Shown here: one piece after another, positions 3,591-19,100 of the stretch | How positions within the stretch are numbered: the first letter of the stretch is position 1 | How the letters are laid out: each line of letters begins with the position of its first letter | Origin: a virus | Reading direction: 5' to 3' (one strand) | Virus record (IMG/VR): IMGVR_UViG_3300022926_000125 | Coordinates: 1-22,590 of that record | DNA: 22,590 nucleotides | Program-made: the position numbers and the translations under genes | The notes under the pieces: model-generated | What the model was told of the DNA's origin: nothing | The model's input: only the letters and a program-made list of their open reading frames with translations | Database searches by the model: none

Positions 3591-4465
3591 TGAACCACGT
3601 AGCTGAACTATCACTGCATAGCTTCTTACAGAAGGCACTCAATGGGGAGACTATTGTTGATGAGTCTATCATTGAGAAGGTTGGTAAGGACGTAGCTGAT
3701 GCAGTCCGCAAACAGTTCAGCAGCGGTTCTCGTGATGAGTTTAAGTTAAGGATGTCCAACCTTGGGCGTCCTACTTGCCAACTCTGGTACGAGAAGAATG
3801 ACCCTGCAGACAAGACACCATTCCCGACACAGTTCCTAGTGAACATGATGTTGGGTGATATTGTTGAGGCTGTATTCAAGGGGTTACTTCGTGCTGCTGA
3901 CGTTGAGTTTACAGACAATGAGAAGGTTACACTTACTCTGTCTGACGGTACTGAGATCAATGGTGAGTTCGACATGATCCTAAACAATCGTGTTGATGAT
4001 GTTAAGTCTGCATCACCCTGGTCATACCAACATAAGTTCGTTGACTTCGAGACACTAGCAAAGGGTGATACCTTTGGTTATGTCAGCCAGCTTGTAGGCT
4101 ATGCTGTTGCAGCAGGTAAAGAGGTTGGCGGTTGGTGGGTAATAAACAAGGCTAACGGGGAGTTCAAGTATGTCGATGCTAATGGTGTTGATGTTCCTGC
4201 ACAGATGCAGAAGATCGAAGAGACAGTAAAGTATATTCATGAGGACAAACCTTTTGAGCGTTGCTTTGAGGCTATCCCTGAGACGTATCGTAAGAAAGCA
4301 TCAGGTAACTTGAAGCTAGGTACTACGTGTGGCTTCTGTGCTTATAAGCATAAGTGCTGGCCTGGACTACAGACGCTACCCTCCAGGGTTTCTACTGCTA
4401 AAGAGTTGCCTATGGTAGACTACGTATTCATAGGGGATGGTTTTGACGACAGCAAAGAGGCATAA
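3590..4465 (+). CDS. PD-(D/E)XK exonuclease, Cas4/RecB-like, with predicted Fe-S cluster
   Basis: 291 residues. The nuclease core shows GEFDMI (D128), then VDDVKSA giving D137xK139, and FGYVSQLVGY with Q167xxxY171, the order expected for RecB/Cas4-type PD-(D/E)XK nucleases. Four cysteines, C63 near the N-terminus and C247xxC250xxxxxC256 near the C-terminus, have the spaced arrangement that in Cas4 and AddB binds a 4Fe-4S cluster bracing the nuclease fold. Such phage enzymes resect DNA ends for recombination or degrade host DNA, filling the place of T7 gp6 exonuclease. It starts on the stop codon of the putative SSB and overlaps endonuclease I by 29 nt. No helicase domain is present, so it is a stand-alone nuclease. 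Strand polarity cannot be told from sequence. Confidence 0.82.
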   Translation: MNHVAELSLHSFLQKALNGETIVDESIIEKVGKDVADAVRKQFSSGSRDEFKLRMSNLGRPTCQLWYEKNDPADKTPFPTQFLVNMMLGDIVEAVFKGLLRAADVEFTDNEKVTLTLSDGTEINGEFDMILNNRVDDVKSASPWSYQHKFVDFETLAKGDTFGYVSQLVGYAVAAGKEVGGWWVINKANGEFKYVDANGVDVPAQMQKIEETVKYIHEDKPFERCFEAIPETYRKKASGNLKLGTTCGFCAYKHKCWPGLQTLPSRVSTAKELPMVDYVFIGDGFDDSKEA

Positions 4466-4880
4466 CCCTAGGCGATACAGAAGTGGCCTAGAGAAAACAG
4501 TATCGGAGTTCCTGAAGCAAAACCAAAAGCAAGTTCGTTATGAAGAGCTTAAGGTAGAGTGGATGGATCTTCGGTATAGAACATACACACCTGACTTTGT
4601 GTTAGACAACGGTATCATCATTGAGACTAAAGGTATCTTTGACAATGAGGATAGACGTAAGCACATAGCTGTAAGAGAACAGCACCCTGAGTTAGATATT
4701 AGGTTTGTCTTTAGTAATGCGAACGCTAAGTTATACAAAGGGTCAAAGACTACTTATGCAATGTGGTGCGATAAGCATGGGTTCATGTACTCTAATCGTA
4801 TCATACCGCAAGAGTGGTTGGCTGAAGAGGGTGCAGCACTACGCAAGAAAGTCATAAAGCTAAAGGTTGATAAACAATGA
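4437..4880 (+). CDS. Endonuclease I, T7 gp3-like Holliday junction resolvase
   Basis: 147 residues from ATG 4437, with clear side-by-side similarity to T7 gp3: SGLEKTVSEFL, YTPDFVLDNGIIIETKG, REQHPELDIRFVFSNA and KLYKGSKTTYAMWCDKHG all have close T7 equivalents. The catalytic set is complete: E19, D53, E63 and K65, matching T7 E20/D55/E65/K67. The enzyme acts as a domain-swapped dimer that cuts four-way junctions and branched DNA, resolving concatemers before packaging and helping to break down host DNA. The start is uncertain. AGGGG (4432-4436) touches ATG 4437 but sits 6 nt before an in-frame TTG at 4443, which may be the real start and would remove two residues. It overlaps the upstream nuclease and ends in an ATGA overlap with the next gene. 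Confidence 0.94.
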   Translation: MVLTTAKRHNPRRYRSGLEKTVSEFLKQNQKQVRYEELKVEWMDLRYRTYTPDFVLDNGIIIETKGIFDNEDRRKHIAVREQHPELDIRFVFSNANAKLYKGSKTTYAMWCDKHGFMYSNRIIPQEWLAEEGAALRKKVIKLKVDKQ

Positions 4881-5098: not shown

Positions 5099-5262
5099 AA
5101 AGCTTTAGTGTGATGTTCATAATGCGGGTGGACGAGAACAACAACTTCTTAAGTTCCTACGATGAAGCCCACGAAGAAGATGTCCAGGATTTGATTACAG
5201 ATATTATGTATGACGTGGACGATATAGAAATAGAAAACTTAACAGTTAAGGAGCGACAATGA
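5095..5262 (+). CDS. Small acidic hypothetical protein, 55 residues
   Basis: A short reading frame that fills what would otherwise be a 160-nt gap between the DUF3310 gene and mazG. It begins with ATG at 5095, overlapping the upstream TGA, and its own TGA (5260-5262) overlaps the ATG of mazG at 5259, so both ends form ATGA junctions like those of its neighbours. This exact fit is the strongest sign that it is real. The product starts MKSFSVMFIMRVDENNN, likely a beta strand, and continues into an acidic stretch with an amphipathic helix (EEDVQDLITDIMYDVDD). It has no cysteines, no membrane segment and no motif I recognise. Context suggests a minor role in replication or nucleotide metabolism, but no function can be assigned. 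Confidence 0.82.
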   Translation: MKSFSVMFIMRVDENNNFLSSYDEAHEEDVQDLITDIMYDVDDIEIENLTVKERQ

Positions 5263-5639
5263 GTACTATTAGTGACGGTGACCTGGAGGCTTGGGAATAC
5301 TACAATGAAGTATACAAGAACAAGCAGCTAGGATTGAATGACTACCAGAAGGCAGCATCTAAAACAGCAATCTATAGATCAGAACACTCTATCCTGTACC
5401 CTGCGCTGGGCTTAGCAGGTGAGGCAGGAGAGGTAGCTAACAAAGTAAAGAAGATGTTACGTGATAATAAGTTTGATCGTAATGCTATTGCAGCAGAGAT
5501 TGGTGACGTACTGTGGTACATCGCTGCGCTATCACGAGACTTGAACATTGATTTGCATGACTTAGCAATGCAAAACTTAGAGAAGCTTTACGGACGTAAG
5601 GCACGAGGCACACTAGGCGGGAACGGAGACAACAGATGA
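5259..5639 (+). CDS. mazG: MazG-like nucleotide pyrophosphohydrolase
   Basis: 126 residues forming one all-alpha MazG domain. The metal-binding motif is visible as LAGEAGEVANKVKK (E55, E58), followed after about 20 residues by EIGDVLWYIAAL (E80, D83), giving the ExxE...ExxD signature. Family members hydrolyse (d)NTPs to monophosphates and pyrophosphate. In marine phages the roles proposed are cleaning damaged or excess nucleotides or altering host nucleotide signalling; the true substrate here is unknown. The N-terminal 45 residues (YYNEVYKNKQ, DYQKAASKTAIY) are the usual leading helix of phage versions. It is coupled by ATGA overlaps to the 55-residue gene before it and the ribonucleotide reductase after it (5636), placing it in the dNTP supply block. 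Confidence 0.92.
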   Translation: MSTISDGDLEAWEYYNEVYKNKQLGLNDYQKAASKTAIYRSEHSILYPALGLAGEAGEVANKVKKMLRDNKFDRNAIAAEIGDVLWYIAALSRDLNIDLHDLAMQNLEKLYGRKARGTLGGNGDNR

Positions 5640-6233
5640 ATAACTATCTACCAACAGACTACCAAGCATTTATTCACACATCACGTTATGCACGATGGTT
5701 AGAAGAAGAAGGCCGACGTGAGAGTTGGGATGAAACAGTACACCGTTACATGAAGAACGTAGTATATCGTGCACTACCTAATTCAGGTGATGCTTGCGCT
5801 GAGTATGACTATGGTTCAGTTGAGCGTGATCTACGTGATGCTATCTTGGGCCTAGAGGTTATGCCTTCTATGCGAGCTATGATGACAGCTGGCCCAGCGC
5901 TTGAGCGTGACAACACTGCAGGATATAACTGTTCGTATCTACCTGTAGATGATCCCAAGAGTTTCGACGAGGCCATGTTCATTCTGTTGTGTGGCACTGG
6001 TGTTGGCTTCTCTGTTGAACGTCAGTTCGTGACTAAGCTGCCAGAAGTACCACAGTTGTTCCAGAGTGATACCACAGTCGTCGTGAAGGACAGCAAAGAA
6101 GGTTGGGCTAAAGCTCTGCGTCAAGTGGTTGCACTCCTCTATAGTGGCGAGATCCCTAAGTGGGACGTTAGCAAAGTTCGTCCTGCAGGTGCAAGACTAA
6201 AGACGTTTGGAGGACGTGCCTCTGGCCCAGCGC
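5403..6233. repeat. Cluster of three of the six GCCCAGCGC 9-mers in the window
   Basis: GCCCAGCGC occurs on the + strand at 5892-5900, 6225-6233, 11189-11197, 13729-13737 and 18313-18321, and on the - strand at 5403-5411. Five of the six are preceded by CTG or CTC, giving CTSGCCCAGCGC. All lie inside genes, in different reading frames and with different gene orientations. No function is known to me. Confidence 0.75.
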
Positions 6234-7567
6234 CATTGGTTGATCTGTTTAACTTTGTCATCAAGGTATTCAAAGATGCACAAGGACGTAAGCTGTCTAG
6301 CATTGAAGCACACGACATCATGTGTAAGATCGGTGAAGTTGTAGTCGTCGGTGGTGTACGCCGTTCAGCTATGATCTCTCTGTCAAACTTGAGCGATGAT
6401 CGTATGCGTCATGCTAAGTCGGGTCAGTGGTGGGAGAGCAATCCGCAACGTGCATTGGCTAACAACTCTGTGTCATACACTGAGAAGCCAGACAGCCTAT
6501 CCTTCATGCGTGAGTGGATGGCACTGGTAGAGTCAGGCTCAGGTGAGCGTGGCATCTTTAACCGCCAGGCATCTAAGAAACAAGCCTCTAAGAATGGACG
6601 ACGTGATTCTAACTATGAGTTCGGCACTAATCCCTGCTCAGAGATTATCCTTCGTCCGTACCAGTTCTGTAATTTGACTGAGGTTGTTGTTCGTGCAGCT
6701 GATAGTATAGAAGACCTAGAGCGTAAGGTACGTCTTGCTACTGTCTTGGGAACGATCCAGTCTACCTATACTAAGTTCCCATACCTTCGTAAGATCTGGC
6801 AAAACAACACTGAAGAAGAACGTCTGCTTGGAGTTTCTCTGACAGGCATTATGGACAACCCTCTAATGACCACAGCTAATGCAGGTCTAGACAAAACATT
6901 GGAGCACTTACGTGATGTTGCCATTAAAACAAATGCTGAGTGGGCTGATCGTCTTGGCATTCCTGTTGCTGCTGCTATCACTTGTGTTAAGCCATCGGGA
7001 ACAGTATCCCAACTCGTTGACTCTGCCTCTGGGATACACGCACGACATTCACCTTATTACATTAGAACCGTTAGAGGAGATAACAAAGACCCTCTTACAT
7101 CCTTCATGAAAGACCAAGGTATCCCAAATGAACCTGATGTATTTAAACCAGATCAGACTACAGTATTTAGCTTTCCAATTAAGTCACCTGACGATGCCGT
7201 TGTTACCTCAGATGTATCAGCAATTGACCAGTTGAAGATGTGGTTGGCTTATCAGCGTCACTGGTGTGAACACAAGCCATCTGTGACTATCAACGTCAAA
7301 GCTAATGAGTGGTTTGAAGTAGGTGCTTTTGTGTACGATCACTTCGATGAGATGTCTGGTGTATCCTTCTTGCCATACAACGAGCATACATATCAGCAAG
7401 CACCGTACCAAGAAGTAGGCAAGTCTGAGTACGAGCAACTACTATCATTGATGCCTAAGTCAATCGACTGGGCTAAGTTGATGGAGTACGAAAAGGAAGA
7501 CAATACTTCTGGTATGCAGACACTAGCTTGTTCTGGTGACTCATGTGAGATCGTGGACCTGACATAA
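5636..7567 (+). CDS. nrdJ: Adenosylcobalamin-dependent (class II) ribonucleoside-triphosphate reductase
   Basis: 643 residues, monomeric RTPR type as in Lactobacillus leichmannii. Key residues align by spacing: N-terminal redox C99 (AGYNCSY); the NPCSE motif with N332, thiyl-radical C334 and E336; second redox C345, 11 residues after C334 as in the model enzyme; and C-terminal shuttle cysteines C632/C637 in ACSGDSC. MPSMRAMMTAG and LLCGTGVGFSVE are typical of the alpha/beta barrel core. It makes dNTPs from NTPs using vitamin B12 and no oxygen, so it depends on host cobalamin. It is about 100 residues shorter than the Lactobacillus enzyme. It starts in an ATGA overlap with mazG and is followed after 1 nt by a glutaredoxin, the probable electron donor to the C-terminal cysteines. 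Confidence 0.95.
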   Translation: MNNYLPTDYQAFIHTSRYARWLEEEGRRESWDETVHRYMKNVVYRALPNSGDACAEYDYGSVERDLRDAILGLEVMPSMRAMMTAGPALERDNTAGYNCSYLPVDDPKSFDEAMFILLCGTGVGFSVERQFVTKLPEVPQLFQSDTTVVVKDSKEGWAKALRQVVALLYSGEIPKWDVSKVRPAGARLKTFGGRASGPAPLVDLFNFVIKVFKDAQGRKLSSIEAHDIMCKIGEVVVVGGVRRSAMISLSNLSDDRMRHAKSGQWWESNPQRALANNSVSYTEKPDSLSFMREWMALVESGSGERGIFNRQASKKQASKNGRRDSNYEFGTNPCSEIILRPYQFCNLTEVVVRAADSIEDLERKVRLATVLGTIQSTYTKFPYLRKIWQNNTEEERLLGVSLTGIMDNPLMTTANAGLDKTLEHLRDVAIKTNAEWADRLGIPVAAAITCVKPSGTVSQLVDSASGIHARHSPYYIRTVRGDNKDPLTSFMKDQGIPNEPDVFKPDQTTVFSFPIKSPDDAVVTSDVSAIDQLKMWLAYQRHWCEHKPSVTINVKANEWFEVGAFVYDHFDEMSGVSFLPYNEHTYQQAPYQEVGKSEYEQLLSLMPKSIDWAKLMEYEKEDNTSGMQTLACSGDSCEIVDLT

Positions 7568-7568
7568 C

Positions 7569-7808
7569 ATGTACACTATTATCACACGAAACCAGTGTAA
7601 CTTCTGTGATACAGCCAAGGCTCTGTTAAGGAGCCAAGGCTTACCCTTCACAGTATATAATGTCCAAGATCCTGAGACTAAGTGGTTGCTTACTCTGATC
7701 AAACAGGCAGGGCACACAACAGTACCACAAGTGTTTGGACCTGATGGTTCTTACATTGGTGGGTACACAGAGTTAAAGGATCAACTTAATGCAGCTGGAT
7801 ATGTTTAA
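7569..7808 (+). CDS. Glutaredoxin (NrdH-like redox partner)
   Basis: 79 residues with a complete thioredoxin-fold glutaredoxin pattern. The sequence opens with a beta strand, then NQCNFCDTAK with redox pair C10/C13, then the cis-proline loop TVPQVF (P53), and finally GGYTEL (G64/G65), which in glutaredoxins contacts glutathione or the partner protein. The active site CNFC is not one of the most common forms (CPYC, CVQC). It begins 1 nt after the ribonucleotide reductase stop and most likely reduces that enzyme's C-terminal cysteine pair after each turnover. Whether it takes electrons from glutathione or from host thioredoxin reductase cannot be decided from sequence. Its 3' end overlaps the next gene by 20 nt. 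Confidence 0.93.
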   Translation: MYTIITRNQCNFCDTAKALLRSQGLPFTVYNVQDPETKWLLTLIKQAGHTTVPQVFGPDGSYIGGYTELKDQLNAAGYV

Positions 7809-8214
7809 AAATCTTGATGCCTATATAAAGGAAGAGGTAAAGACATGCCGTATCTGCCAGGAGGATAAACCTGTATCTATGTTTCAGGGTACTACAGGAG
7901 GCAAAGCTAAGCAGAGAGTATGTAAGAGTTGCTTTAAGGATCAATACCATAAAGTAAAAAAACTAAAAGAAAAAATACCTCTCCCATCAGCTGATTACTG
8001 TTGCCCTATCTGTGAAAGAAACGAAGCAGAATTAAAGAAGATAGAGAAAACTAAAAAGACTGTCTGGAGTTTTGATCACTGTTGGACCACCTACACCTTT
8101 AGAGGGTGGTTGTGTCATAGGTGTAATAGGGGTCTTGGGTTCTTTACCGACGATATAAACTCTTTAAAAAATGCCGCTATCTATTTAGAGCGTTCATCTA
8201 AGGACACACTATGA
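7789..8214 (+). CDS. Endonuclease VII-like HNH (beta-beta-alpha-metal) nuclease
   Basis: 141 residues. The C-terminal half fits the recombination endonuclease VII family: C72xxC75, then FDHCWTT (D96, H97), RGWLCHRCNRGLGFF with C109xxC112 and the presumed catalytic N113, and an ending NSLKNAAIYL. Four cysteines (C72, C75, C109, C112) form the zinc site that braces the nuclease. The usual DHDH is reduced to DHC, so the second histidine is missing. The N-terminal half adds another CxxC pair (C20/C23, C45/C48), a second zinc knuckle. Family role: resolving branched DNA, or nicking as a homing-type HNH enzyme. ATG 7789 was chosen over the ATG at 7801 because AAGGA (7776-7780) lies 8 nt upstream. 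It sits between glutaredoxin and phoH, overlapping both, so it is integrated in the operon. Confidence 0.85.
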   Translation: MQLDMFKNLDAYIKEEVKTCRICQEDKPVSMFQGTTGGKAKQRVCKSCFKDQYHKVKKLKEKIPLPSADYCCPICERNEAELKKIEKTKKTVWSFDHCWTTYTFRGWLCHRCNRGLGFFTDDINSLKNAAIYLERSSKDTL

Positions 8215-8924
8215 TCGAAGATCGTGAACCACCAAAGAAGCAATCTCGTACTCGTCGCAAGACAAACTACAAGGGGGCTGACAGTAAGAAGACCTCAGGC
8301 TTCACGCCACGTACTAACAATCAGCGTGACCTGTGGGACTACATGAAGACACACGATCAAATCTTTATCCTTGGTCCAGCGGGTACAGGTAAGACATTCG
8401 TTACTGCTACGTTTGCAGCTGACCTGTATACACTCAAGGAGATAGACAAGATTGTTATCACTCGTCCTCATGTGGCTGTTGGTAAGGATGTAGGTTATCT
8501 ACCTGGTACACTAGAGGAGAAGACCTACCCCTGGGCTTTACCTGTTCTAGATGTACTGACTAAGCATCTGGGTAAGGGTGCAGTAGAGACTGGCATCAAG
8601 AATGGCAACATTGAGATGGCACCTCTAGCGTTAATGCGTGGGCGTAGCTTTGAGGATGCTTTCATTATTGTAGACGAGACACAGAACATAACAACGCATG
8701 AACTGAAGATGCTCCTAACTCGTGTGGGTGAGGGCAGTAAGATCGTACTCAATGGTGACGTACAACAGTCAGACTTAAAGGAAGCGGATGGCTTATCAAA
8801 GGTTATTCATCTAGCTAAGAAACATATGCTAGACATTCCTATTATTGAGTTTGGTGTAGAGGATATTGTACGTAGTGGTATCTGTGCTGAGTGGGTTAAA
8901 GTATTCCTTAAGGAAGGATTATAA
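8211..8924 (+). CDS. phoH: PhoH-like ATPase
   Basis: 237 residues, one P-loop domain of the PhoH family. Walker A is GPAGTGKT (55-62), Walker B is FIIVDETQN (D155/E156), and NGDVQQSD (181-188) is the sensor I segment. TRPHVAVGKDVGYLPGTLEEK (84-104) is the family signature loop. The first 35 residues are basic and probably disordered (KKQSRTRRKTNYKG), which could contact nucleic acid. PhoH is very common in marine phages. It is named from the phosphate-starvation regulon, but biochemical work on the family points to RNA-linked ATPase or helicase activity, so the phage role is unsettled. It starts in an ATGA overlap with the HNH nuclease and is the last gene of the coupled replication operon. 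Confidence 0.94.
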   Translation: MIEDREPPKKQSRTRRKTNYKGADSKKTSGFTPRTNNQRDLWDYMKTHDQIFILGPAGTGKTFVTATFAADLYTLKEIDKIVITRPHVAVGKDVGYLPGTLEEKTYPWALPVLDVLTKHLGKGAVETGIKNGNIEMAPLALMRGRSFEDAFIIVDETQNITTHELKMLLTRVGEGSKIVLNGDVQQSDLKEADGLSKVIHLAKKHMLDIPIIEFGVEDIVRSGICAEWVKVFLKEGL

Positions 8925-8927
8925 TGC

Positions 8928-8957
8928 TTGACACCTAAGTTGTATTTATGATACACT
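8928..8957 (+). promoter_or_regulatory. Candidate sigma70-type promoter before the 68-residue ORF
   Basis: The 77-nt gap after phoH contains a perfect -35 hexamer TTGACA (8928-8933). An 18-nt spacer leads to TACACT (8952-8957), which is preceded by TGA, an extended -10 (TGn). The -10 matches the consensus at four of six positions. It would start transcription near 8964 and drive only the small ORF at 9002 before the terminator at 9215, separating that gene from the long operon. A TATGAT at 8947 is better as a hexamer but only 13 nt from the -35, so it is less likely. Confidence 0.5.
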
Positions 8958-9001
8958 TACCATAGCTCCTAGCCTGGGCTTTAACATGTAAGTGGATTGG
9001 A

Positions 9002-9208
9002 ATGTTAACACTCGAAGAAGAGGCTAAGCGTTTCATTGAGTCTAAGAAGGTACAGTTTATAGCAGGTCTTGAGGATGGTATGGATGACATCCTAGACTAC
9101 TTGTTAGATAACTTATACCCCTCAGATGAAAAGGACTACGCTATAAAAGCCCTGAAAGAAGCTGTACTATGGTCACGAGAATGTGCTAATAAGTACGGCA
9201 TACAATAA
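9002..9208 (+). CDS. Small helical protein, candidate Acb2/Tad1-hairpin-type cyclic-nucleotide sponge
   Basis: 68 residues, ATG at 9002 with only a weak GGATTGG upstream. Predicted to be all helical: a charged N-terminal helix (LEEEAKRFIESKK), a middle helix (MDDILDYLLDNL), then a turn with PSDEKDYAIKALKEAVLWS and a short tail. The pattern P-S-x-E..A...L.EA..W is the one I associate with the hairpin domain of Acb2, the phage protein that sequesters CBASS cyclic oligonucleotides, and with related small T4-type proteins. The similarity is by eye and covers about 30 residues, so the family call is tentative. The gene is set apart from the replication operon by its own promoter and terminator, as accessory host-takeover genes often are. 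If it is not Acb2-like, its function is unknown. Confidence 0.72.
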   Translation: MLTLEEEAKRFIESKKVQFIAGLEDGMDDILDYLLDNLYPSDEKDYAIKALKEAVLWSRECANKYGIQ

Positions 9209-9214
9209 ACTAAA

Positions 9215-9245
9215 AGGGAGGCCGTGATAGCCTCCCTCTTTTTAT
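9215..9245. terminator. Bidirectional intrinsic terminator between convergent arms
   Basis: AGGGAGGC (9215-9222) pairs perfectly with GCCTCCCT (9230-9237) around a 7-nt loop. The + strand continues CTTTTTATTT, a classic U-tract for the small ORF ending at 9208. Read on the - strand, the same hairpin is followed by TTTTAGTTTA, which can end transcripts of the virion gene that stops at 9242. One 8-bp stem thus serves both converging operons. Confidence 0.92.
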
Positions 9246-12200
9246 TTCAAACCATAAAGTTTATCTGTTGCTTTAGTTTCTTTTTCTTCCATATCAAGGT
9301 AGAACTTTATGATCTCTAGCTGCTCAGTGTCTAGCTTAGAGGGATCAGATTCAAATCCCATATCGTTTAGGATCTTAGCCAATTCTTTCTTTGGCACCTT
9401 ACCTAACTCCCATAACACTTTAGTACGAGTATCAGCTGGGTCATACGATACAGCCAACATATCTTTAATGTCACCCTTAGCTAAAGTTATAATCTGAGAA
9501 ATCATCGTCTTACGATCAGCAGCTGAAGCATTCTTCCATTTGTTTGTATCCATGTACATAGAAGCATAGTAGTTCAGCACTGGTGTGATCATACGATTGA
9601 TGTCATTCAGTGGCTCAGCAATGTTAGACCTAATGCCTGTACGCCACTGGGCTAGACCTGCCTCATTGAACATCTCTTGAATAGGGGACTGTGCTAACTC
9701 CTCACGAATACCAAAGATACGCCCAATAGGTACACGATCCTGCTCAGCTGTTAGTGGGCGCTGCTTTTGTTCAGGCTTAGTGTACAGATCCATAGCACCC
9801 AGAATTTCATCAACGTAACGCACAGAGTTATTCACCCATTCGCTACCCTGACGACGATCAGGTGATACGTATGGTGTACCTTTAGATAGAGCGATCACTT
9901 GGTTGACTGGATCTAGTGGACGTGAGTAGCCTGACAGATACATAGACGCAGACTTAGATACAAACTCACCTAGCATACGCTTAGCTTCGACATCATCAGA
10001 TGTAGTTATATCAACTAGCATATCGTAAGCGCCTTGAATGCTATCACCAAGCTGACGTGTAAGCTGTTGAGGGCCAAACGTTGCAGCTAGTTCTTCAATC
10101 AAAGGCTTAGGTACTTCACCGTCACGGTACACATGTGCAGCCATACGTCCTACTGCCTTGTAGAAGCTATAAGGGAAGTCATACATACGGTTACGAATAG
10201 TACCATCTGAGCTACGCTCCTGGTACCATGCTAGTCCTTCATCCAAGTAGTCCATCTCATAGGTAGCAGCAGCCCCAATAAAGGTAAGACCAACAGCAGA
10301 CTTAGTTAGCAACTCCATAGGATCACGTGCAGTACCAGCTACGTATTTGTGGATAAGGCTGATACCTGTGTGGTCCATCATGTGGCCAAGCGTGTTGTTG
10401 AAGAACTGACCAAAGGGAATCATAGCCCCAATGATAGGCAGCTTACGTACATCTTCAATGACCTTAGCAGCAAACTGTAGTGTACCCTCTGTACCACCAT
10501 ACTGCTTAGCAAACACGTTACGTAGTGCGTCCTCTGAGGCGACTGACACAATACGTGCATACTCATCCCCAGTCATACGCTTCCATAGGTTCTCATCCTT
10601 AAGGAAGTCTACATAAGATACACCATACTCTAGACGTACTTGCTTGTCGATTGCGTACATAAACTCCTGAGACTTAGTTAGGATGTCTTGCGCTTTAACG
10701 CCATAGATTGTTTGTGCACCATCCATGATCTTATCAAAGACATTACGCTTCTGGACTAGAGCATCAGCCTCCTTAATGCCCATGTCTTTAGCCATAGCAC
10801 CGAAGTCTTGGAAGCCTAGATCTTTAGCAATCTCTTCTAGTTCAATACCACCAGACAGATACTTGAACATCTTCTTCTGTGCTTCAGGGTTATACGCAGC
10901 GAAGTCCATGAACGCTTCATACGTCATGTGTGGGTCTAATAAGTTACGTGCTTTCTGCTTCTGCAAGCTAAACATCAAGCCAGCTTTACGGGCATACTTA
11001 GCAGCCCCTTCCTTGTTAAACATAGCTGCATTAAGCAGAGAGCCAGTACCATACAGAGTACCACGTACAATGTCAGATGCTGATTGCATAACGCTAGCTG
11101 TCTGCCAACCAATCAAGTTGAGGGCAGTCGTACCAGGGTGAGTAACAAGCATACGAATAAGGTTACGCTGCAGGTAGTGTGTACCCTCGCCCAGCGCATC
11201 ACGTACTTTCTGTGAGATTGCTGGTAGCTCTGCCTCAATGACACCCTCAAGCATCTTATCAGGATCAGCCTTAGGAATATACTTTAGAGTTCTGCTCATC
11301 TGAGACAGAATGTTAAGCTCTTGTCCAGCCTTACTGAATTGCTCAGCGTCCATCTTAAGAGCTTGAGTAAAGGACTTACCCTTGTACTCATCAACAGACT
11401 TACCTAAGCTACTACGGAAGGCTTCGTCTATGTCTTTCTGTGCTGCAGCTGGAAGCTCAATAATTAAGTCATGCATCCAGTTAGCAAAGTTATCACCATC
11501 AAAACGTGGTGACCAGTTGCGTACACCATTATCAGCTAAGATACCAGCCACACCCTTAATACCTAAAGCTTCATCACCTAGATAGAAAGCTTTACGGATC
11601 TGTGTTTCTTTCTGTGGTACTTTACCACCAGCCAGCATACGAATAATGCTACCCTGCTGTACCTTAGTGGCAAACTCTTCCATCTTCTTCTTAAAGTCAG
11701 GAAGGCTATCCTGGAATCCCTTAATGTCTAGGTCTTCCTTGGCAGCTTTCTTAACGTCACCCGCAATAGTACGTGCTCTTGCAAGGTTCTGGTTAGCTAA
11801 GTCAAAGTAGTATGCACCAAGCATGTCTGCCTCTGGACCAGTAGCACGACCGAGCATGTTAAGACCCAGGGATAGACCTGTACCAAACACACCACCAGCT
11901 GCAGCAACAGAGCCTTGGATCAAGTCGTACTCAGTCTGTAGCCCAACTTCCTGCATAGCCTGTTGGTACACAGCGTCAATAGATACACCAGCCACAGTGT
12001 CAGTTACACCAGTAGCTATAGCTTCAGTGGTTGCAATACCACGTAGTCTCTTAGAGAACTCACCAGCAGCGACGTCCTTAAAGCCTTCATTCTTTAGTAC
12101 TTTACCAATAAGCTGACGCTCAATCTGTTTAGCTTCTTGCTTAGCTAATTCAGTTAAGCCTCTCTTCTTGATGATGTCTGCTACTTCTTTCTTAACAGCC

Positions 12201-12763
12201 TCTTTAGCAATCTGTGCAGCTGCTTTAGCTCCACCACCAGTAAAGACTTTACCTACACCCAAAGAGATTAAGTTGACTGGATCAACTACCAGTGCACGAC
12301 CATAGTCATACACAGCATCAAGCTTCTCCATGCCAGATGTACCCTCAGCGAAGGCACCCTTCATAGCGTCAAAGGTAGTATAAGCTGCAGCAGCCTCAGC
12401 CTTCTGTACTTCAGAGGCATTCTTCAAGTAAGACATCTCACCCAGTGTAACTACAGACTGACCGAAGTTAAACTTACGCATGTTGTTCACATAAGCATCG
12501 ACAATCTTCTGACGGTCAAACTTATCCTCCGTCATACCAAAGCGAGACTTCATGTAGGGTGCAATCTTAGCAAAGATCTTGTCTTGTGTAAGGTCACGCA
12601 CCCCTTCAGGAGTAGCTTCTGTGTCATCAGTAGGCTGTAGGTACTTTGTAAAGTCTTCACCGTCTTCTTCTACAGGAGTTAGATACTTAGTATAATCCTC
12701 TGTGTCGTCCTCCTGAGTTTCTTCTTCGTTTACAGGTACAAGATACTTTGTAAAGTCTTCCAT
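9242..12763 (-). CDS. Large virion protein, putative internal/DNA-ejection protein (1173 residues)
   Basis: 1173 residues, the last gene of the virion operon. I recognise no enzyme motif. The N-terminus (1-50) is acidic and carries three copies of (D)FTKYLxP at residues 3-10, 23-30 and 37-44. Beyond it are Ala/Gly-rich amphipathic stretches (VDPVNLISLGVGK near 160, GSVAAAGGVFGTGLSLGLNMLG near 284-305) and a later segment AVGLTFIGAAATYEMDY, of the kind that insert into membranes. Size, helical Ala-rich make-up and a place directly downstream of a transglycosylase gene fit the large ejected core proteins of podoviruses (T7 gp15/gp16 role), which form a channel across the host envelope. The assignment rests on context. 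The ribosome binding site is weak (AAGG 11 nt upstream), so it may be coupled to the gene 11 nt before it. Confidence 0.62.
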   Translation of the reverse strand: MEDFTKYLVPVNEEETQEDDTEDYTKYLTPVEEDGEDFTKYLQPTDDTEATPEGVRDLTQDKIFAKIAPYMKSRFGMTEDKFDRQKIVDAYVNNMRKFNFGQSVVTLGEMSYLKNASEVQKAEAAAAYTTFDAMKGAFAEGTSGMEKLDAVYDYGRALVVDPVNLISLGVGKVFTGGGAKAAAQIAKEAVKKEVADIIKKRGLTELAKQEAKQIERQLIGKVLKNEGFKDVAAGEFSKRLRGIATTEAIATGVTDTVAGVSIDAVYQQAMQEVGLQTEYDLIQGSVAAAGGVFGTGLSLGLNMLGRATGPEADMLGAYYFDLANQNLARARTIAGDVKKAAKEDLDIKGFQDSLPDFKKKMEEFATKVQQGSIIRMLAGGKVPQKETQIRKAFYLGDEALGIKGVAGILADNGVRNWSPRFDGDNFANWMHDLIIELPAAAQKDIDEAFRSSLGKSVDEYKGKSFTQALKMDAEQFSKAGQELNILSQMSRTLKYIPKADPDKMLEGVIEAELPAISQKVRDALGEGTHYLQRNLIRMLVTHPGTTALNLIGWQTASVMQSASDIVRGTLYGTGSLLNAAMFNKEGAAKYARKAGLMFSLQKQKARNLLDPHMTYEAFMDFAAYNPEAQKKMFKYLSGGIELEEIAKDLGFQDFGAMAKDMGIKEADALVQKRNVFDKIMDGAQTIYGVKAQDILTKSQEFMYAIDKQVRLEYGVSYVDFLKDENLWKRMTGDEYARIVSVASEDALRNVFAKQYGGTEGTLQFAAKVIEDVRKLPIIGAMIPFGQFFNNTLGHMMDHTGISLIHKYVAGTARDPMELLTKSAVGLTFIGAAATYEMDYLDEGLAWYQERSSDGTIRNRMYDFPYSFYKAVGRMAAHVYRDGEVPKPLIEELAATFGPQQLTRQLGDSIQGAYDMLVDITTSDDVEAKRMLGEFVSKSASMYLSGYSRPLDPVNQVIALSKGTPYVSPDRRQGSEWVNNSVRYVDEILGAMDLYTKPEQKQRPLTAEQDRVPIGRIFGIREELAQSPIQEMFNEAGLAQWRTGIRSNIAEPLNDINRMITPVLNYYASMYMDTNKWKNASAADRKTMISQIITLAKGDIKDMLAVSYDPADTRTKVLWELGKVPKKELAKILNDMGFESDPSKLDTEQLEIIKFYLDMEEKETKATDKLYGLK
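12632..12763 (-). repeat. Triple FTKYLxP peptide repeat at the N-terminus of the 1173-residue protein
   Basis: DFTKYLVP, DYTKYLTP and DFTKYLQP begin at residues 3, 23 and 37, separated by acidic linkers rich in E and D. Unequal spacing (20 and 14 residues) and conservation of only the short core point to a binding peptide kept by selection rather than a recent tandem duplication. Confidence 0.85.
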
Positions 12764-12774
12764 TGGACACAGCC

Positions 12775-14688
12775 TTATCGGTTATTCAGTTTATCACGAA
12801 GCTCATATAGAGATGCTAGTAGTGTATCACGAGAGTCTGTCTTAGGCAAATCCTTAGTCTTGCTGATTAGTTTGGTTACATCTGCTGCAGTCATGCTTTC
12901 ACTGCGATCCAGAGATTTAGCTACTGTAGAACCTGCACCGTGTAGACGATCAACCATAGATTTGATAGAGTCAATATCACTCATAACGTCAGGCTTTGCG
13001 TCTGGACGTGACTTAGTAGGTTCAGAGGGGCGTGACATTAGCCCTGCATTGTTTGGTGCACGATCACCACCCGTTGGAACCATAGCAGATACTTCACTTG
13101 CAATATCACCGTCTACCATTGCAGGAGGTGTATCAATGTATTCTACTTCGGTGTCTGCCCTCTTAGCTGAGAATGTACCGCCTCCCGTCTCTGTATCTTG
13201 AGCTTTACCATATAGAGCAGCTGTTGCGTCTGATGTGGCTTCTGTTTGATCATTATTAAACAGTCTATTTATAGCACCTTTAAAGTAGTCAACTAGAGAG
13301 GGGACTTCCTCTGATTCAAACTTTTTAAGTTCTTCTTGTATGTCTACTGGTAGTGGCGTATTAGATAGCAAGCTCTCAAAAGTAGCATCACCCATGTCAC
13401 TATTAATGAAAGCATCATACTCATCTTGTAGATCTTCTGGTAGATCTGACTTAAAGGTATCAATGGCTTCTTGTACTTCTGGTGTTTTAACTACTTCTTT
13501 AATGTCTTCACGATCAAATCTTCCTTTAAAGCGCTCAGCCAATCCTGGAGCTTTAGGAGGTTTAACAGAGGGACCAGTATACGTAGATGTTTTACCAGCG
13601 ACTGTAACCGTGTCATTAGGCTGTACTGTGCCATCAGCTACGGCTTTATTAAAGTCTGCTGCTGTATCAAATATGTGTGTCTTTGGTGTTCTCGGAGCTG
13701 TTGGAGCTATCGGTGCTGTTGGCTCCTCGCCCAGCGCTTCTTGCGTTTGTATAACTGCAGGTGTTTCTTCCTTGTCCTCAGACATATAAGCTTTAAGTAC
13801 TGGATTAAACTGAGGAGCATACGTATTACGAGTAAGGATACCTGGAGTAATTGCTTCCATAGATGCAGCATACTTCAAGAAGCTAGGATCTATAGCCGCA
13901 TACTCAGCAAAACCAGCAATAGATTTCCCTTTTAATGTCTCTAGATCTTCAATCTCTTGTTTTAACTTAGCTACACCTTCTGTGTTTGTGGGATCTAGTT
14001 CGTTCAGTTTCAGGGTTGCAGCACGAATACGAGCATCAATACCTGATTCAAACACATCTGATAGAGTAGTAACAGCAGATCTTTGTTGGGAGTCTGTAGC
14101 TGGCTTACCAGGTAAGTTCAAGTCTAATGCTTGGCCTCCTGTAAGCTTTGGCGCTGTACCCATAACACGATATAGGTCACGACCTGTCATGCCATTGATG
14201 TAGATGTCATCAAGTACTTCGTCTTCCATCATACCATTGTCTAAGCCAAAGATAGCAGCAAGAGCATTGCTCTCACGCTTCACAGGATTGTCACCACCCT
14301 TGTATAGACCATAAGCTTTATTGATAACCTTGGTAAGATCTACATCAGGGTTATCAGCTACATAGTCTTTAGCTTTCTTGATCAGTGCTTTCTTGTCTTC
14401 AGCTGTAAGATCATCACGATCCTCAAGAGTAGTCTTTAGTTGCACCAGTCCTTGGATTCCACTTGTGTTTAACACATAGGCAACGTCTGCTTTGTCAATA
14501 CCATAGGTCATAACTGAATTAGCAATACCTAAAGCTGCTTGTGCTTTTTCTTCACGATCAACAATAGCTTTAGTACCATACGTTTGTAGATACTCTTGAC
14601 GCTTAGCTGCACGATCACGTGCATACTGTTTACGCTCTTCAATACCCTTAGCTAGAGTAGTACCAAAACCAGCCCAGAAACCTGCCAT
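12775..14688 (-). CDS. Putative internal virion/structural protein (637 residues)
   Basis: 637 residues, family not recognised. The N-terminus MAGFWAGFGTTLAKGI is a short Gly-rich hydrophobic segment followed by a basic, helical, coiled-coil-like stretch (EERKQYARDRAAKRQEYLQ). The middle is largely helical and charged. From about residue 300 the protein becomes Pro/Thr-rich and low in complexity, with repeated PTAP-type steps (EEPTAPIAPTAPRTPK), and it ends in a helical region (TLLASLYELRDKLNNR). A segment near the C-terminus, NNAGLMSRP, resembles the last residues of the upstream 202-residue protein (RSGLMARG). It lies between two genes of the virion block with gaps of 4 and 11 nt, so it is almost certainly co-transcribed and probably packaged. 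GAGG 8 nt upstream supports the start. An internal core or ejection protein is the likeliest role. Confidence 0.58.
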   Translation of the reverse strand: MAGFWAGFGTTLAKGIEERKQYARDRAAKRQEYLQTYGTKAIVDREEKAQAALGIANSVMTYGIDKADVAYVLNTSGIQGLVQLKTTLEDRDDLTAEDKKALIKKAKDYVADNPDVDLTKVINKAYGLYKGGDNPVKRESNALAAIFGLDNGMMEDEVLDDIYINGMTGRDLYRVMGTAPKLTGGQALDLNLPGKPATDSQQRSAVTTLSDVFESGIDARIRAATLKLNELDPTNTEGVAKLKQEIEDLETLKGKSIAGFAEYAAIDPSFLKYAASMEAITPGILTRNTYAPQFNPVLKAYMSEDKEETPAVIQTQEALGEEPTAPIAPTAPRTPKTHIFDTAADFNKAVADGTVQPNDTVTVAGKTSTYTGPSVKPPKAPGLAERFKGRFDREDIKEVVKTPEVQEAIDTFKSDLPEDLQDEYDAFINSDMGDATFESLLSNTPLPVDIQEELKKFESEEVPSLVDYFKGAINRLFNNDQTEATSDATAALYGKAQDTETGGGTFSAKRADTEVEYIDTPPAMVDGDIASEVSAMVPTGGDRAPNNAGLMSRPSEPTKSRPDAKPDVMSDIDSIKSMVDRLHGAGSTVAKSLDRSESMTAADVTKLISKTKDLPKTDSRDTLLASLYELRDKLNNR

Positions 14689-14692
14689 ATCC

Positions 14693-15301
14693 TTAACCTC
14701 GTGCCATTAGACCACTACGTACAGGTGCTTCCTGTTCCATCTGTGGCTGTTGTTCTTCCATTGGTGCTTCGCCTTCCATAGGCATAGCTTCTGTCTCTTC
14801 TTCCATCATGGGCATTTCATCTTCCATGCCACCTAGCCCAGAGGCTACGTCACGCATCAAGTCTACACCCTCATCGTCTTCCTTAGTACCCTCAAGCTTC
14901 TTAATACGTTCTAGTACCAGAGCTTTGACTTCCTCTTCACGCTGACGTTGTTTAGTCTCTTCGTCATCGCCATCACCCATCTTGAAGGGAATACCTGAGT
15001 CCTCAGCAATAGCCTTAAGTTCTTCCTGTACTACAGGCAAGACAATCAGACCTACGTCTACAGAGTGAATACCATCCATCTGTGCTTTGGTTACGATAGT
15101 CTTAGCTAGTGGAGCTAGAGGTACACCCAACTGTAGGACTTGAAGAAGATTGTCCATTACGTTAGTTTTGTTTAGGTGGTTAATGTGGAAGTCAATAGCT
15201 TCTTCAGGATCACTAATCTCTGGTGGACGTTCCCAAGGATGGTTACGTGGTTCATCTGTTAGGGATTGCCCTGGGATAGGTGCATCAAATACGCTTGCCA
15301 T
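14693..15301 (-). CDS. Acidic hypothetical virion-operon protein (202 residues)
   Basis: 202 residues. The first 90 include FHINHLNKTNVMDNLLQVLQ, helical and conserved-looking, then a compact domain (VDVGLIVLPVVQEELKAIAEDSG). The C-terminal third is low complexity, made of Met, Glu, Pro and Gln (repeated EEEMPM/EGEAPMEEQQPQ-like units), ending RSGLMARG. No catalytic motif or membrane segment is visible. AAGGA 7 nt upstream of the ATG supports the start. It lies 12 nt after the transglycosylase gene and 4 nt before the 637-residue protein, so the three are one transcription unit. Acidic helper or scaffold-like roles during assembly of the ejection core are possible but unproven; I do not recognise the family. 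Confidence 0.75.
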   Translation of the reverse strand: MASVFDAPIPGQSLTDEPRNHPWERPPEISDPEEAIDFHINHLNKTNVMDNLLQVLQLGVPLAPLAKTIVTKAQMDGIHSVDVGLIVLPVVQEELKAIAEDSGIPFKMGDGDDEETKQRQREEEVKALVLERIKKLEGTKEDDEGVDLMRDVASGLGGMEDEMPMMEEETEAMPMEGEAPMEEQQPQMEQEAPVRSGLMARG

Positions 15302-15313
15302 TATGTTATCCTT

Positions 15314-16162
15314 TTATGATCGTGCTCTATAGACAGCTTCACCACGGGTAACGGTACCGTCATTATCAATGTCTAAGCCTTTGTTTGCACGGTATTGCTT
15401 ACTACCCTTAGAGTACATTACATAGTCATCACTTTGACCTACTGCAGCTGGCCAGTGAATAGCCATATAAAGGTCATCAAAGTCTTTTATCTTACCCTCA
15501 AAGCGAGACAAGTATTTATCTACATATTCCATCTGATCTGCACGTGACATCTTAGCCAAGGCTTTAGTAGAAGTACCAAGACCCTTAGCTGTATCAGGCA
15601 TAAACTGAATTAAGCCTGTTGCACTAGAGGTACCAGACTTCTGTGCAGGATCCCATGAACCAGCTGTTTCAAACTGAATAGCTTTAAGAAGTTCTACAGA
15701 GTCAATGCCATGCTTAGACGCAAGAGTATCTACCTTAGACATGAAAGCTTTATCTTTCTTAACTTCTTCAGGTAAATTTAGTTTGTAGTCAGGATGAGGT
15801 TTCTGCCCTGGCTTATACTTAGGCTTGGTTATACCAAGTTCCATACCCTCCATGTAATCAGTCTCTGTGCCACCCAGCTGCCCCATCTCATTACGAGATA
15901 ATTGTGCATCAAACATATCGGAACCATCACTAACGCTTTTTAAACGTTCACTTGAGTTCGGGCGTGACTCACGAATAGCGTCTAAATGTTCACGTACAAA
16001 GCTTGGCAGGGAGTCTACAGGATCAAGAGGTCTAGATGTAATCATTTGTTGCTCTTTAGCCATCATGCCTCTAGTGCGCTGACGTGCTGTACCAGCTGTA
16101 GGTGTAGCCGTAGCTTCAGCCACAATAGCATCAGCCAAAGTTAGTTCATTCTTATTTGCCAT
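15314..16162 (-). CDS. Virion-associated lytic transglycosylase (SLT domain) with EF-hand loop
   Basis: 282 residues. Residues about 138-215 form a soluble lytic transglycosylase domain: LLKAIQFETAGSWDP with catalytic E165, then SATGLIQFMPDTAKGLG, the usual GLxQ(F/I)MP motif. The enzyme cuts peptidoglycan glycan strands with formation of 1,6-anhydro ends. Residues 264-275 read DIDNDGTVTRGE, a textbook EF-hand calcium loop (D264, D266, D268, G269, T270, V271, E275). The first 130 residues are polar and probably disordered. There is no signal peptide or holin nearby, and the gene sits among virion genes, so it more likely opens a local hole in the wall during DNA entry (as T7 gp16 does) than acts as the endolysin. 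AAGG is 9 nt before the ATG. Confidence 0.87.
   Translation of the reverse strand: MANKNELTLADAIVAEATATPTAGTARQRTRGMMAKEQQMITSRPLDPVDSLPSFVREHLDAIRESRPNSSERLKSVSDGSDMFDAQLSRNEMGQLGGTETDYMEGMELGITKPKYKPGQKPHPDYKLNLPEEVKKDKAFMSKVDTLASKHGIDSVELLKAIQFETAGSWDPAQKSGTSSATGLIQFMPDTAKGLGTSTKALAKMSRADQMEYVDKYLSRFEGKIKDFDDLYMAIHWPAAVGQSDDYVMYSKGSKQYRANKGLDIDNDGTVTRGEAVYRARS
15338..15373 (-). other. EF-hand calcium-binding loop in the transglycosylase
   Basis: Twelve residues D-I-D-N-D-G-T-V-T-R-G-E, with ligands at loop positions 1, 3, 5, 7 and 12, Gly at 6 and a hydrophobic residue at 8. It lies 8 residues from the C-terminus, so it is a single dockerin-like loop rather than a pair. Confidence 0.8.
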
Positions 16163-16173
16163 TTTGTTTTACC

Positions 16174-19100
16174 TTACCCTAGCTTACCTAAGCCCCATTC
16201 AAGAGCACCCTCAACGAGCTTACCAAAGAGTGTACCTTTACCCATCTGGTCTGCTAGCTCAGCCTGTTGATCCGCACTTAGCTCTTGTAGCAATACAGAA
16301 GCGATACGGTCTGCAGCATTCTCAGCTGAAGTAAACGCAAAGCTCATAATGTCACGCTCACGCTGCCAATACTGATCCAGGTTAGCTGCAGTCATGCTGT
16401 TCATAGTACGAGCATACTCCATGTTAGACTGGTTCTGTGCAGCTGTGTTGATCGTAGCAATGTTCTGTCTCCAGTTGGCATTGGCTTGAGCAACGACTAG
16501 ACCATTCTGAGCGTTGAACATATCACGCTGTTCTTGTAGTCCCGCATTAAACTGACGCATAGAGTTAATGCTATCAGTGTTGTACTGAGCCATAGCGTTC
16601 TGTTGGGCTGCGTTGAATGTGCTTGTCTGTGTAGCCAGGTTAGCAAAGAATTGATCTGCTTGGTTCTCACTAGAAGCGTTGAACTGTAGTGAGGCATTCT
16701 CTGCTGCCTGGTCAGTCAGTATAGACTGTTGTACAGCTTGAGCCTTAAACATAGCAGCTTGCTGTTCGTTTGTCAAGTTAGACATATCCATCTGCAGGAA
16801 GGCTTGAGCATTTTGTACCGCTACCTGTTGTTTGTTAGACAGGTTAGCCATATCCATAGCAGCAATCTGTGCAGCGTTCTGTAGTGTAGATGCTTGCTTA
16901 GAGTTTAAGTTAGCAAGACCAACAGTCTTCATCAATTCAGAGTTATGAAGCTGGGCTTGTTGCTGTGCAGTAAACGTTAAGTTGTTAGCCTCAGAAAAAC
17001 GTGCAGCATTAGTGATAGCTGTTTGCTGGCGGTTATCAATAGTCTTACCCTGTAACGCTGCCTCTAGCTGAGCATTCGTAATGTATGACTGTTGCTTAGA
17101 TGAGAGGTTAGCTAAGTCTACTTGCAGGTTGTTCTGACTACCCTGTAGTACAGCCTGTTGAAGATTAGACAGGTTTAAGTTAGACGCTTCAGCATAACGT
17201 GCAGCAACCACTAGGTTAGACTGTTGTTCATTAGTTAAGTTCTGACCCTGTAGAGCAGATTTAATCTGTGCATTAGCAAGTACAGCCTGTTGCATGTTTG
17301 ACAAGTTCTGAGACTGTAGACCAAAAGCGTTCTGTGAGTTCTGCAGTGCAGCCTGTTGCTCAGCATTGAAGTTAGCTAGTTCTACACCCTGTTGTGCAGC
17401 CGCATTCGTAAGGGCTACTTGTTGTTGACGGTTTAGATTATCCATCTTCATAGAACGGAAAGCTTCTGCATCTGCTGCAGCAATAGGGATAGCTGATTCC
17501 ATAGTAGCCTGAACAATAGCAGCTGCAGCCATAGAGCTACCACCTAAGCCACGTGCAGCCATGGCAGCGTTAGCCGCTCGCATAGCACCAGCAGCCCAAG
17601 CAGGAGTACCATCATCAAAGTCTTTCATCAGCTGAGATAGTTGACCCTGAACAGTGTCTTGCGCTTCAATCTTACCCTCTTTAAAGGCTACAAGAGTACC
17701 CTCATCTAGGGAGAACTTAGCAAGCTTTGCAGCTGTGGCTGTAGCATCAGTAGTCAAACCCGACATAGTAATAGCTTCAGCCTGGGCCATCTCTGACTCA
17801 GCGATCTGTGCAGGTTTAGGTAGCTCTTCTGGTTTAACTGTAGTCTGTGCCGCTTTAATGTTTTCAGGTACATTAGCTTGAGCAATGTTAGCTTTTACTG
17901 CTTCTTCGTCTAGACCCTGAGCCTGAGCTAGTTCCTGTGCTGTAACATTACGCTGTCCTGCAAATACAGAATCTATATAGTTAGGGTCAAACGCAGCAGC
18001 ATCAGCCTTTGCCTCAGGCGATAACTCACCCTGTGCAGCCACCGCTTGTGCTTCCTTAGAGACCTCACCCTGAGCGGCAGTAACACCTTCTGTTTTAAAC
18101 TTACCCTGAGGTGCACCTTTAACCCACCCCTTTGGAGCGGTATAGCCACCACTAGGTACTAATACCTGCTCGCCTGTGGTTGGGTTATGGAAAGTCTCAA
18201 AAGCTTGGGTGACCATGCTTCCACGGGGTGGAGGTGTAAACCCTGCATCTGCCGCTGAGACCTTTTTGTAGTCTCTTTCGGTGCCATACAAAGCTTCAGA
18301 CACTTGAGGCTGGCCCAGCGCAGCGTCATACATCATAGTTGGACCTTTTTCTACTGTCTGTGCTTGAGCAGTAATAGGTACAGTAGAAGCCTCTTGCATA
18401 TTAGCTAAGGGTAATACTTGACCTGCATCTTCAGGGATGAAATCTCCAGCAGTAGGTATAATACCTTTTACAGTAGCTTGACGGGGTGTCATCGTTTGAG
18501 TGATAGTGTCCTGAGCTTGTCCAAAGAATTGATCCTGAAAGTCAGGGCTTACTGACACGTCTACACCCTCATCTGCATATAGTACAGCACCGCCTTGCGC
18601 CAAGTTTCCTCTTACCATACCACCACGTGCAAGAGCTACACCAATAGCACGAGCCTTAGCTTTTAGAGCGTCACTGCTATTGAAGAAGGCTTTCAGTGCT
18701 GTGCTAGACTGTGGACCTTTGTAGCCGTTCATCTTAGCAATAGTGAAGAGAGCCTCTGTCTGAGTGTCACCACCCTTAACAGTACCACCCTCAGCAAACG
18801 ATCCCCCTAAGTCAATAGGCTTAGAAAACTCTCTCCCTAAGTCAACATCAGTAGGCTTAACTTTATACTTAGGCTCATACAGAGTATTATCGCCTTTAAG
18901 CGGTTTAGTTGCGATACCCTTACCCCTACTATACCCTGGAGGCACAGCTGTGATAGGCTTGCCGTTAAGCTCAGTGATCATCATCTGTGCTCCGTACTTG
19001 TTAGTATAGGGTACGTCTTTATAGCCTGTACCAATGAATTCACCTGAGCCTGGAGCAGTAGTCACCAGTGAAGAATCAATGTTACCTACTGTACCTGCAT

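Follow-up and report, generated by a model that had tools for sequence, protein, structure and literature searches.

In B. subtilis and S. aureus, the Chi-like sites are read by AddAB. Their sequences have been given as AGCGG and GAAGCGG, respectively, and Chi motifs are described as polar and over-represented (PMC8022716). Lambdoid phages of the Rec- class over-represent the Chi of E. coli, and those with RecBCD inhibitors avoid it (PMC3784561). A 2021 survey counts only five species with a known Chi-like sequence, notes that Alphaproteobacteria rely on enzymes of the AddAB type and takes the two alphaproteobacterial candidates of its own to be probably false positives (PMC8022716). For the Rhodobacteraceae, or Roseobacters, we found no previously identified Chi sequence. 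Here, we report on a 22.6-kb stretch of viral DNA (IMG/VR record IMGVR_UViG_3300022926_000125; hereafter the window), in which an earlier note had pointed out six copies of the 9-mer GCCCAGCGC, and we present this word as a new candidate. The record spans these 22.6 kb only, the window thus being a partial genome. Judging from its sequence, it is a fragment of an HMO-2011-type roseophage, with a polymerase 65–68% identical to those of CRP-603, CRP-2 and CRP-207 and a similar gene order. We propose that GCGCTGGG, preferably in the form GCGCTGGGC, is a Chi-like site of AddAB in Planktomarina and many other Rhodobacteraceae that has been accumulated by phages exposed to this enzyme, a reading to which we give a probability of about 0.72.

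The six copies, five on the plus strand and one on the minus strand, lie exactly where the earlier note had placed them (Table 1). Dinucleotide shuffles of the window contained 0.07 copies of GCCCAGCGC on average, and six were reached in 0 of 100. Codon-preserving shuffles, which the note had proposed as a way to refute the signal and for which we used our own open reading frame calls covering 97% of the window, held 0.03 copies on average and never more than one, so that six copies never arose (0/300). The word ranks first among window 9-mers under both a Markov-1 and a Markov-2 model, and its excess has a P of ~2e-10, uncorrected for ~1.3e5 word pairs. No one-mismatch neighbour was found in the window, all six matches at up to one mismatch being exact. 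The GCGC sites of the window, put at about 24 in the note, number 23.

The true core of the signal is the 8-mer CCCAGCGC (GCGCTGGG on the opposite strand), with a G favoured before CCCAGCGC. Across the relatives we counted 137 distinct CCCAGCGC sites, omitting those within ~70–80 bases of contig ends; G stands before the word in 85 of them and after it in 5, and the information in the flanks consists mainly of this preceding G and of the scarcity of a following G. The G precedes all six copies in the window, 10 of 11 in CRP-207 and 6 of 7 in CRP-4. A further upstream CTS does precede five of the six window copies, as had been noticed, but it was rejected as an extension of the word, preceding only 8 of the 85 distinct 9-mer sites. 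Counts of CCCAGCGC reach 18 in CRP-2 (0.42 expected) and 19 in CRP-603 (0.36 expected), and none of its one-base variants exceeds 3 copies in these two phages or in the window. That so many sites have unrelated flanks suggests that the word has been gained repeatedly.

To describe its spread, 20 phage records were compared with codon-preserving shuffles, ten of them through their first 50 kb only. Six stood clearly above every shuffle: the window (6 copies of CCCAGCGC against a shuffle mean of 0.19), CRP-2 (18 against 1.1), CRP-603 (19 against 1.9), CRP-207 (11 against 1.0), CRP-4 (7 against 0.7) and SIO1 (8 against 1.4). No other 8-mer is as strongly over-represented as CCCAGCGC in CRP-2, CRP-603 and the cobaviruses CRP-4 and SIO1. 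Four records were borderline, namely CRP-3 (6 copies, reached by 1/300 shuffles), CRP-13 (3 copies; 4/300), CRP-804 and CRP-6 (5 and 4 copies, respectively, matched in each case by the highest of 150 shuffles). Weak or no enrichment was observed in CRP-1 (2 copies; 17/300), CRP-9 (2; 12/300), ctYwJ313 (2; 42/300), CRP-345 (0), HMO-2011 (0), CRP-5, ICBM2, CRP-7, DSS3phi2 and RDJL1. Enrichment in HMO-2011-type relatives, a check proposed in the earlier note, holds for CRP-2, CRP-603 and CRP-207 but not for HMO-2011, CRP-345 or CRP-1. Among environmental HMO-type sequences, the best 80 of 239 polymerase loci held 140 copies against 5.4 expected and the best 80 of at least 600 terminase loci held 177 against 9.3, with the word carried by 53/80 and 54/80 loci, respectively.

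The note had also described a single chromosomal direction for the word (5:1). This direction applies to the left half of the genome, to which the window mostly maps and where the word lies mainly on the plus strand; a genome-wide strand bias was rejected (CRP-2 10+/8-, CRP-603 9+/10-), and the orientation flips in mid-genome instead. For 56 distinct sites in the six genomes, with the window placed via mapping to CRP-2 and the SIO1 record rotated, the orientation of CCCAGCGC is 21+/7- in the left half and 8+/20- in the right half (Fisher p 0.001), and it remains 16/5 against 6/16 (p 0.002) when CRP-4 and SIO1 are left out. The best change point falls at 0.48–0.50 of genome length, and the gene-direction switch fits less well (p 0.054). 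Between this switch and the midpoint, where genes lie on the minus strand, the count is 7+/1-, seven of eight sites thus following their half against gene direction. Environmental right-half loci, a set not used in forming the idea, agree with the predicted sense by 47:17 (p 2e-4), and in left-half loci the 9-mer agrees by 20:7. Enzymes of the RecBCD type read Chi on the 3'-ended strand. Combined with this polarity, the mid-genome flip implies that active sites would face an enzyme arriving from either end, which would thus be likely to meet the word in its active sense. Single-strand interruption sites of the T5 type lie on one strand of the phage genome; they are unfit as an explanation for a word that CRP-2 and CRP-603 carry on both strands.

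We then turned to host chromosomes. For Planktomarina, the host genus, 640 kb of a metagenome-assembled genome (MAG) around the GC-skew minimum were taken as the origin region, and words with at least 15 copies were ranked by strand polarity. The octamer GCGCTGGG came first of 16866 (73:19 on the leading strand) and the 9-mer GCGCTGGGC first of 6437 (44:4, p 1.5e-9). It should be noted that the strand boundary of the first ranking, at 240 kb, came from the word's own flip; the ranking was repeated at 190, 205, 220 and 240 kb, and rank 1 holds at all four assumed origins (41:7 for the 9-mer at 190 kb). The most polar one-substitution neighbours are GCGCGGGGC (19:3) and GCGCTGGGG (16:4), most neighbours not being polar. 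Moreover, in a second genome of the family (G047), chosen for its word enrichment in a 61-genome count, GCGCTGGG is the top of 5964 polar octamers (93:38). The leading-strand polarity in these two genomes and the flip in the phages support the replication-oriented or Chi-like option among those that the note had listed. Of the other options, a packaging word, an uptake word and a primase site have no observation in their favour, no direct test of them having been made.

As for abundance, copies of the 9-mer and of a reversed-word control were 131/31, 37/11, 65/19 and 125/24 in four Planktomarina MAGs and 246/65 in Roseobacter MED193; Pseudooceanicola spongiae has fewer copies than the control (80/162). 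Over the 61 genomes of the family, the word exceeds the reversed word in 51, at least twofold in 27. The Planktomarina 9-mer occurs 48 times against 22.9 expected under a Markov-4 model (rank 16 of 118039). Two other words, TGAGCCTT (24:2) and TGGGGTGG (32:2), are strongly leading-strand polar in the Planktomarina origin region too.

These data leave hardly any room for chance, codon usage or a shared protein motif. The two reductase sites do encode Gly-Pro-Ala and are shared with relatives, but codon-preserving shuffles do not reproduce the count of any of the six rich phages, the distinct sites number 137, and the host 9-mer within lagging-strand genes of Planktomarina still lies 17:1 on the leading strand and occupies all six frames, frame 0 being the commonest. 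Protein motif, codon bias and chance were thus rejected by the shuffles and by the gene-strand test in the host, which supports a signal at the DNA level, as the earlier note had argued.

A polar octamer of the leading strand invites comparison with the FtsK-orienting polar sequence (KOPS) of Rhodobacterales and, more broadly, with architecture-imparting sequences (AIMS), polar octamers of mostly unknown function present in nearly all bacterial genomes, which by definition increase toward the terminus (PMC5993296). The word resembles KOPS in being 8–9 bp long, polar and on the leading strand, but it is not KOPS, an identity that we consider very improbable. The published alphaproteobacterial KOPS is GGGNAGGG (PMC2443382), and GGGCAGGG is the top polar octamer in samples of MED193 and of the genome G006; in the latter, KOPS is strong (67:10) and our word scarce (13:4). 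In Planktomarina the two words follow opposite gradients. With the terminus on contig C1 taken as ~390 kb, where GC skew and KOPS orientation converge, the first 400 kb of C1 (11 pieces sampled) held GGGNAGGG at 40:3 (our own sum) against one copy of the 9-mer. Around the origin GGGNAGGG is at 53:22, and it climbs toward the terminus; the 9-mer, 44:4 at the origin, then fades, and an identity with KOPS or AIMS was rejected on these grounds. KOPS words showed no enrichment in the phages.

The same evidence bears on the wider possibility that the host uses the word not as Chi but as some other replication-polar signal, for example in segregation, architecture or origin-proximal loading, and that its reader protein is used by the phages. 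Polarity and density peaking at the origin and fading at the terminus speak for it, such a gradient not being demanded of Chi, as does the near-universal presence of AIMS (PMC5993296). Nevertheless, AIMS rise toward the terminus, as GGGNAGGG does in the very same genome, and our word does the opposite; KOPS words are not enriched in phages; and the outward orientation in the two phage halves suits an enzyme that enters at an end. We regard this alternative as unlikely.

Given that Chi motifs are polar and over-represented and that they are enriched in recombinase-less lambdoids, the word fits the Chi pattern. Alphaproteobacterial AddA (profile addA_alphas, over cut-off) was found in 6/6 hosts and recC in 0/6, addA and recC being the profiles searched. 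We suggest that AddAB enters at a DNA end and would degrade the DNA until it meets the word in the right orientation, where it would cease destruction and ready the strand for RecA. The host may hold the word on its leading strand so that broken forks get repaired. Some HMO-2011-type phages and at least two cobaviruses would have collected the word at many positions, facing outward on each genome half, so that AddAB coming from either end would soon meet an active copy; the gain for the phage may be protection or recombination. RecT, Red-beta and Gam families were absent among the scanned proteins, which come from a minority of the genes of the rich phages and from the partial window; gp17 of CRP-4 weakly matches a Gp2.5-like single-stranded DNA-binding and annealing family (phrog_112, E 5e-4).

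Compared with known systems, the word is, like E. coli Chi (GCTGGTGG, read by RecBCD), an 8-bp, G-rich, non-palindromic and leading-strand polar sequence that is over-represented in phages relying on the host pathway (PMC3784561, PMC8022716). It differs in sequence, although GCGCTGGG shares GCTGG, in that our hosts have AddA and no RecC and in its fading at the host terminus; moreover, it is ~40–50 fold over-represented in CRP-2 and CRP-603, the median for Rec- lambdoids being 3.12 (PMC3784561). With the Firmicutes sites it would share its class of reader, AddAB, whereas it is unrelated to them in sequence and longer than AGCGG. In the description of a Paracoccus genome, the B. subtilis AGCGG was attributed to the AddAB of that organism with reference to a review (PMC3925955); the present word suggests another site for Rhodobacteraceae related to Paracoccus. 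The phage distribution recalls the Chi-rich lambdoids, where phages over-represent the host Chi and a companion class is without it (PMC3784561), but ours are marine podoviruses of AddAB hosts in which the orientation flips mid-genome, and three of the word-poor ones carry a DUF932 gene rather than a recognised recombinase or Gam. In the literature on alphaproteobacterial or phage Chi, which we covered in part, no report of the word was found; outside the part covered lies Dataset S6 of PMC8022716, a list of 75 de novo octamers described as GCGC-rich, in which the word may occur. Motifs of 20–40 bp, too long for our word, were sought in a survey of alphaproteobacterial phages (PMC10783043).

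Could a protein of the phages themselves read the word? In that case a regulator, methylase, nicking or homing enzyme would recognise it, and its enrichment would be a trait of phage lineages. Some phages of one host strain have few copies (CRP-1 vs CRP-2), all six word-rich phages have a Cas4-like exonuclease and PhoH, and CRP-2, CRP-603 and CRP-207 have a DNA methylase. On the other hand, the word ranks first among the polar octamers in two genomes of the host family; the CRP-9 methylase is 86% identical to that of CRP-603, yet CRP-9 has 2 copies; the window fragment, CRP-4 and SIO1 match neither methylase; and CRP-13 has a Cas4-like nuclease and PhoH, yet 3 copies. We therefore consider a phage-encoded reader improbable, and methylase, PhoH or Cas4 as sole cause is not supported, CRP-9 and CRP-13 having few copies despite these genes. 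A relative of the Cas4-like exonuclease is also present in several word-poor phages; among cobaviruses, the rich CRP-4 and SIO1 carry it and the poor CRP-5 and ICBM2 carry a 5'-3' exonuclease (small n).

A further contrast concerns DUF932 (PF06067), a gene of which lies upstream of the integrase in CRP-1, CRP-345 and HMO-2011, all lacking or nearly lacking the word. No match to DUF932 was found in the six word-rich records, the window being partial. Its absence is no predictor, however, since of 17 records without DUF932 6 are rich and 11 are not. Environmental contigs with DUF932 (best 80 of at least 600; phage type unchecked) held 4 copies of the word against 2.7 expected, and DUF932 occurred in 1/80 HMO-type polymerase loci within the fetched stretch, many loci not extending that far. 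As it stands, the contrast is suggestive and confounded with phylogeny. An AlphaFold model of the DUF932 protein (mean pLDDT, the predicted local distance difference test, of 66.6) had no match in the PDB at E <= 0.001, RAD52 merely appearing as a row with a probability of 0.06. In a viral library, it gave 24 matches at E <= 0.001: five bore the name DUF932 or TIGR03299, one was called a putative hydrolase and the rest had no name or were uncharacterised. With VIA-align, no Z reached 8. No literature linking DUF932 with single-strand annealing was found. It is possible, although on balance doubtful, that GCGCTGGG(C) is the first alphaproteobacterial Chi-like site (for AddAB) and that HMO-2011-type phages either cover their genome with outward Chi or carry DUF932 to replace or block AddAB.

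Several observations weigh against the word being a Chi-like site: it fades at the terminus, its over-representation is modest under the strictest model, its polarity is weak in MED193 and many phages of the same hosts are poor in it. On the host side, a plain strand bias is what has been described for E. coli Chi (PMC5993296), whereas around the Planktomarina terminus the word fades; five 9-mers were found at 420–600 kb of C1 (5 pieces), four of them on the lagging strand and in one 20-kb piece. Under a maximal-order model the Planktomarina 9-mer has 48 copies against 44.3 expected. In G047 it is only rank 4 in polarity (53:19); in the MED193 samples, at 22:8 by our own count, it is outside the listed top polar words; and in 5/61 genomes of the family its count is no more than half that of the reversed word. 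On the phage side, 14/20 records are without clear enrichment, and CRP-1 (2 copies) and CRP-2 (18) infect one host strain. Only 14/80 and 15/80 environmental cobavirus loci carry the word, and each of these two sets has four distinct sites. Of the seven sites in CRP-4, two also occur in HMO-type phages, so the sites are not all independent and part of them may be inherited or exchanged. CRP-207 is less crisp, with 11 copies of CCCAGCGC but also 7 of CCCAGCGT against 1.5 expected, and variants are mildly in excess in the environmental sets (CCCAGCGT 24 vs 11.2 in set A, CCCTGCGC 26 vs 8.0 in set B). Regarding orientation, the 8-mer in environmental left-half loci is at 22:15, which is not significant; in both environmental half sets word orientation and gene direction mostly coincide; and the "ends" of HMO-type phages in the outward-facing geometry are record ends, not established physical ends. 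For the cobavirus ICBM2, direct terminal repeats are annotated at both ends of the record.

The copies in the window and the genes mentioned here or lying near them are collected in Table 1.

Table 1. Positions of the GCCCAGCGC copies and of associated genes (window coordinates unless a phage is named).
Feature	Position	Strand	Context
GCCCAGCGC copy 1	5403..5411	-	mazG-like gene; reads GCGCTGGGC on +; minority orientation for its genome half
GCCCAGCGC copy 2	5892..5900	+	ribonucleotide reductase gene; homologous sites in CRP-2, CRP-207
GCCCAGCGC copy 3	6225..6233	+	ribonucleotide reductase gene; homologous sites in CRP-2, CRP-603, CRP-207, CRP-4
GCCCAGCGC copy 4	11189..11197	+	antisense in 1173-aa minus-strand gene; between gene-direction switch and midpoint
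GCCCAGCGC copy 5	13729..13737	+	antisense in 637-aa minus-strand gene; between gene-direction switch and midpoint
GCCCAGCGC copy 6	18313..18321	+	antisense in 1292-aa minus-strand gene; just beyond midpoint as estimated via CRP-2 mapping
Cas4-domain (PD-(D/E)XK) exonuclease gene	3590..4465	+	phrog_1990, E 9e-34
Endonuclease gene	4437..4880	+	phrog_945; occupies position of relatives' endonuclease I
Recombination endonuclease VII gene (Holliday-junction resolvase type)	7789..8214	+	PF02945
DUF932 gene	CRP-1 5174-6004; CRP-345 5225-6073; HMO-2011 4544-5380		upstream of integrase

Other words were observed in the same records. ACGATC/GATCGT has 26 copies in the window against 10.1 expected and TGATCGT 14 against 3.5, with a milder excess in CRP-1. 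CAGCTG has 0 copies in CRP-2 and CRP-603 (first 50 kb each) and in CRP-1, where 43–61 are expected counting both strands (about half for a palindrome), a pattern of restriction avoidance; it is present in the window, CRP-207 and CRP-4. Other octamers are strongly over-represented in CRP-6 (CCAGTAGC, 21 copies vs 1.9 expected) and CRP-804 (GCCGCAGC, 14 vs 0.76), and the 9-mer GTAGCTACA/TGTAGCTAC has 11 copies in HMO-2011 against 0.9 expected. At positions 20721-22589 of the window, a gene truncated at the window edge has a C-terminal Peptidase_S74 (endosialidase chaperone) domain.

The observation made in the window is correct and leads beyond it, to a candidate Roseobacter Chi that sequence comparisons support from both phages and hosts. 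Seen from these two sides, the candidate makes the question testable, and it could aid recombineering in Roseobacters. Seeking a host's polar word in its phages could likewise reveal Chi in other groups. The DUF932 contrast offers one concrete candidate gene, and if the idea attached to it were true, DUF932 would be an unrecognised anti-AddAB or recombination factor. If the Chi reading is true, the word would mark, at the sequence level, the way in which abundant ocean phages withstand the degradation of DNA ends by their hosts.

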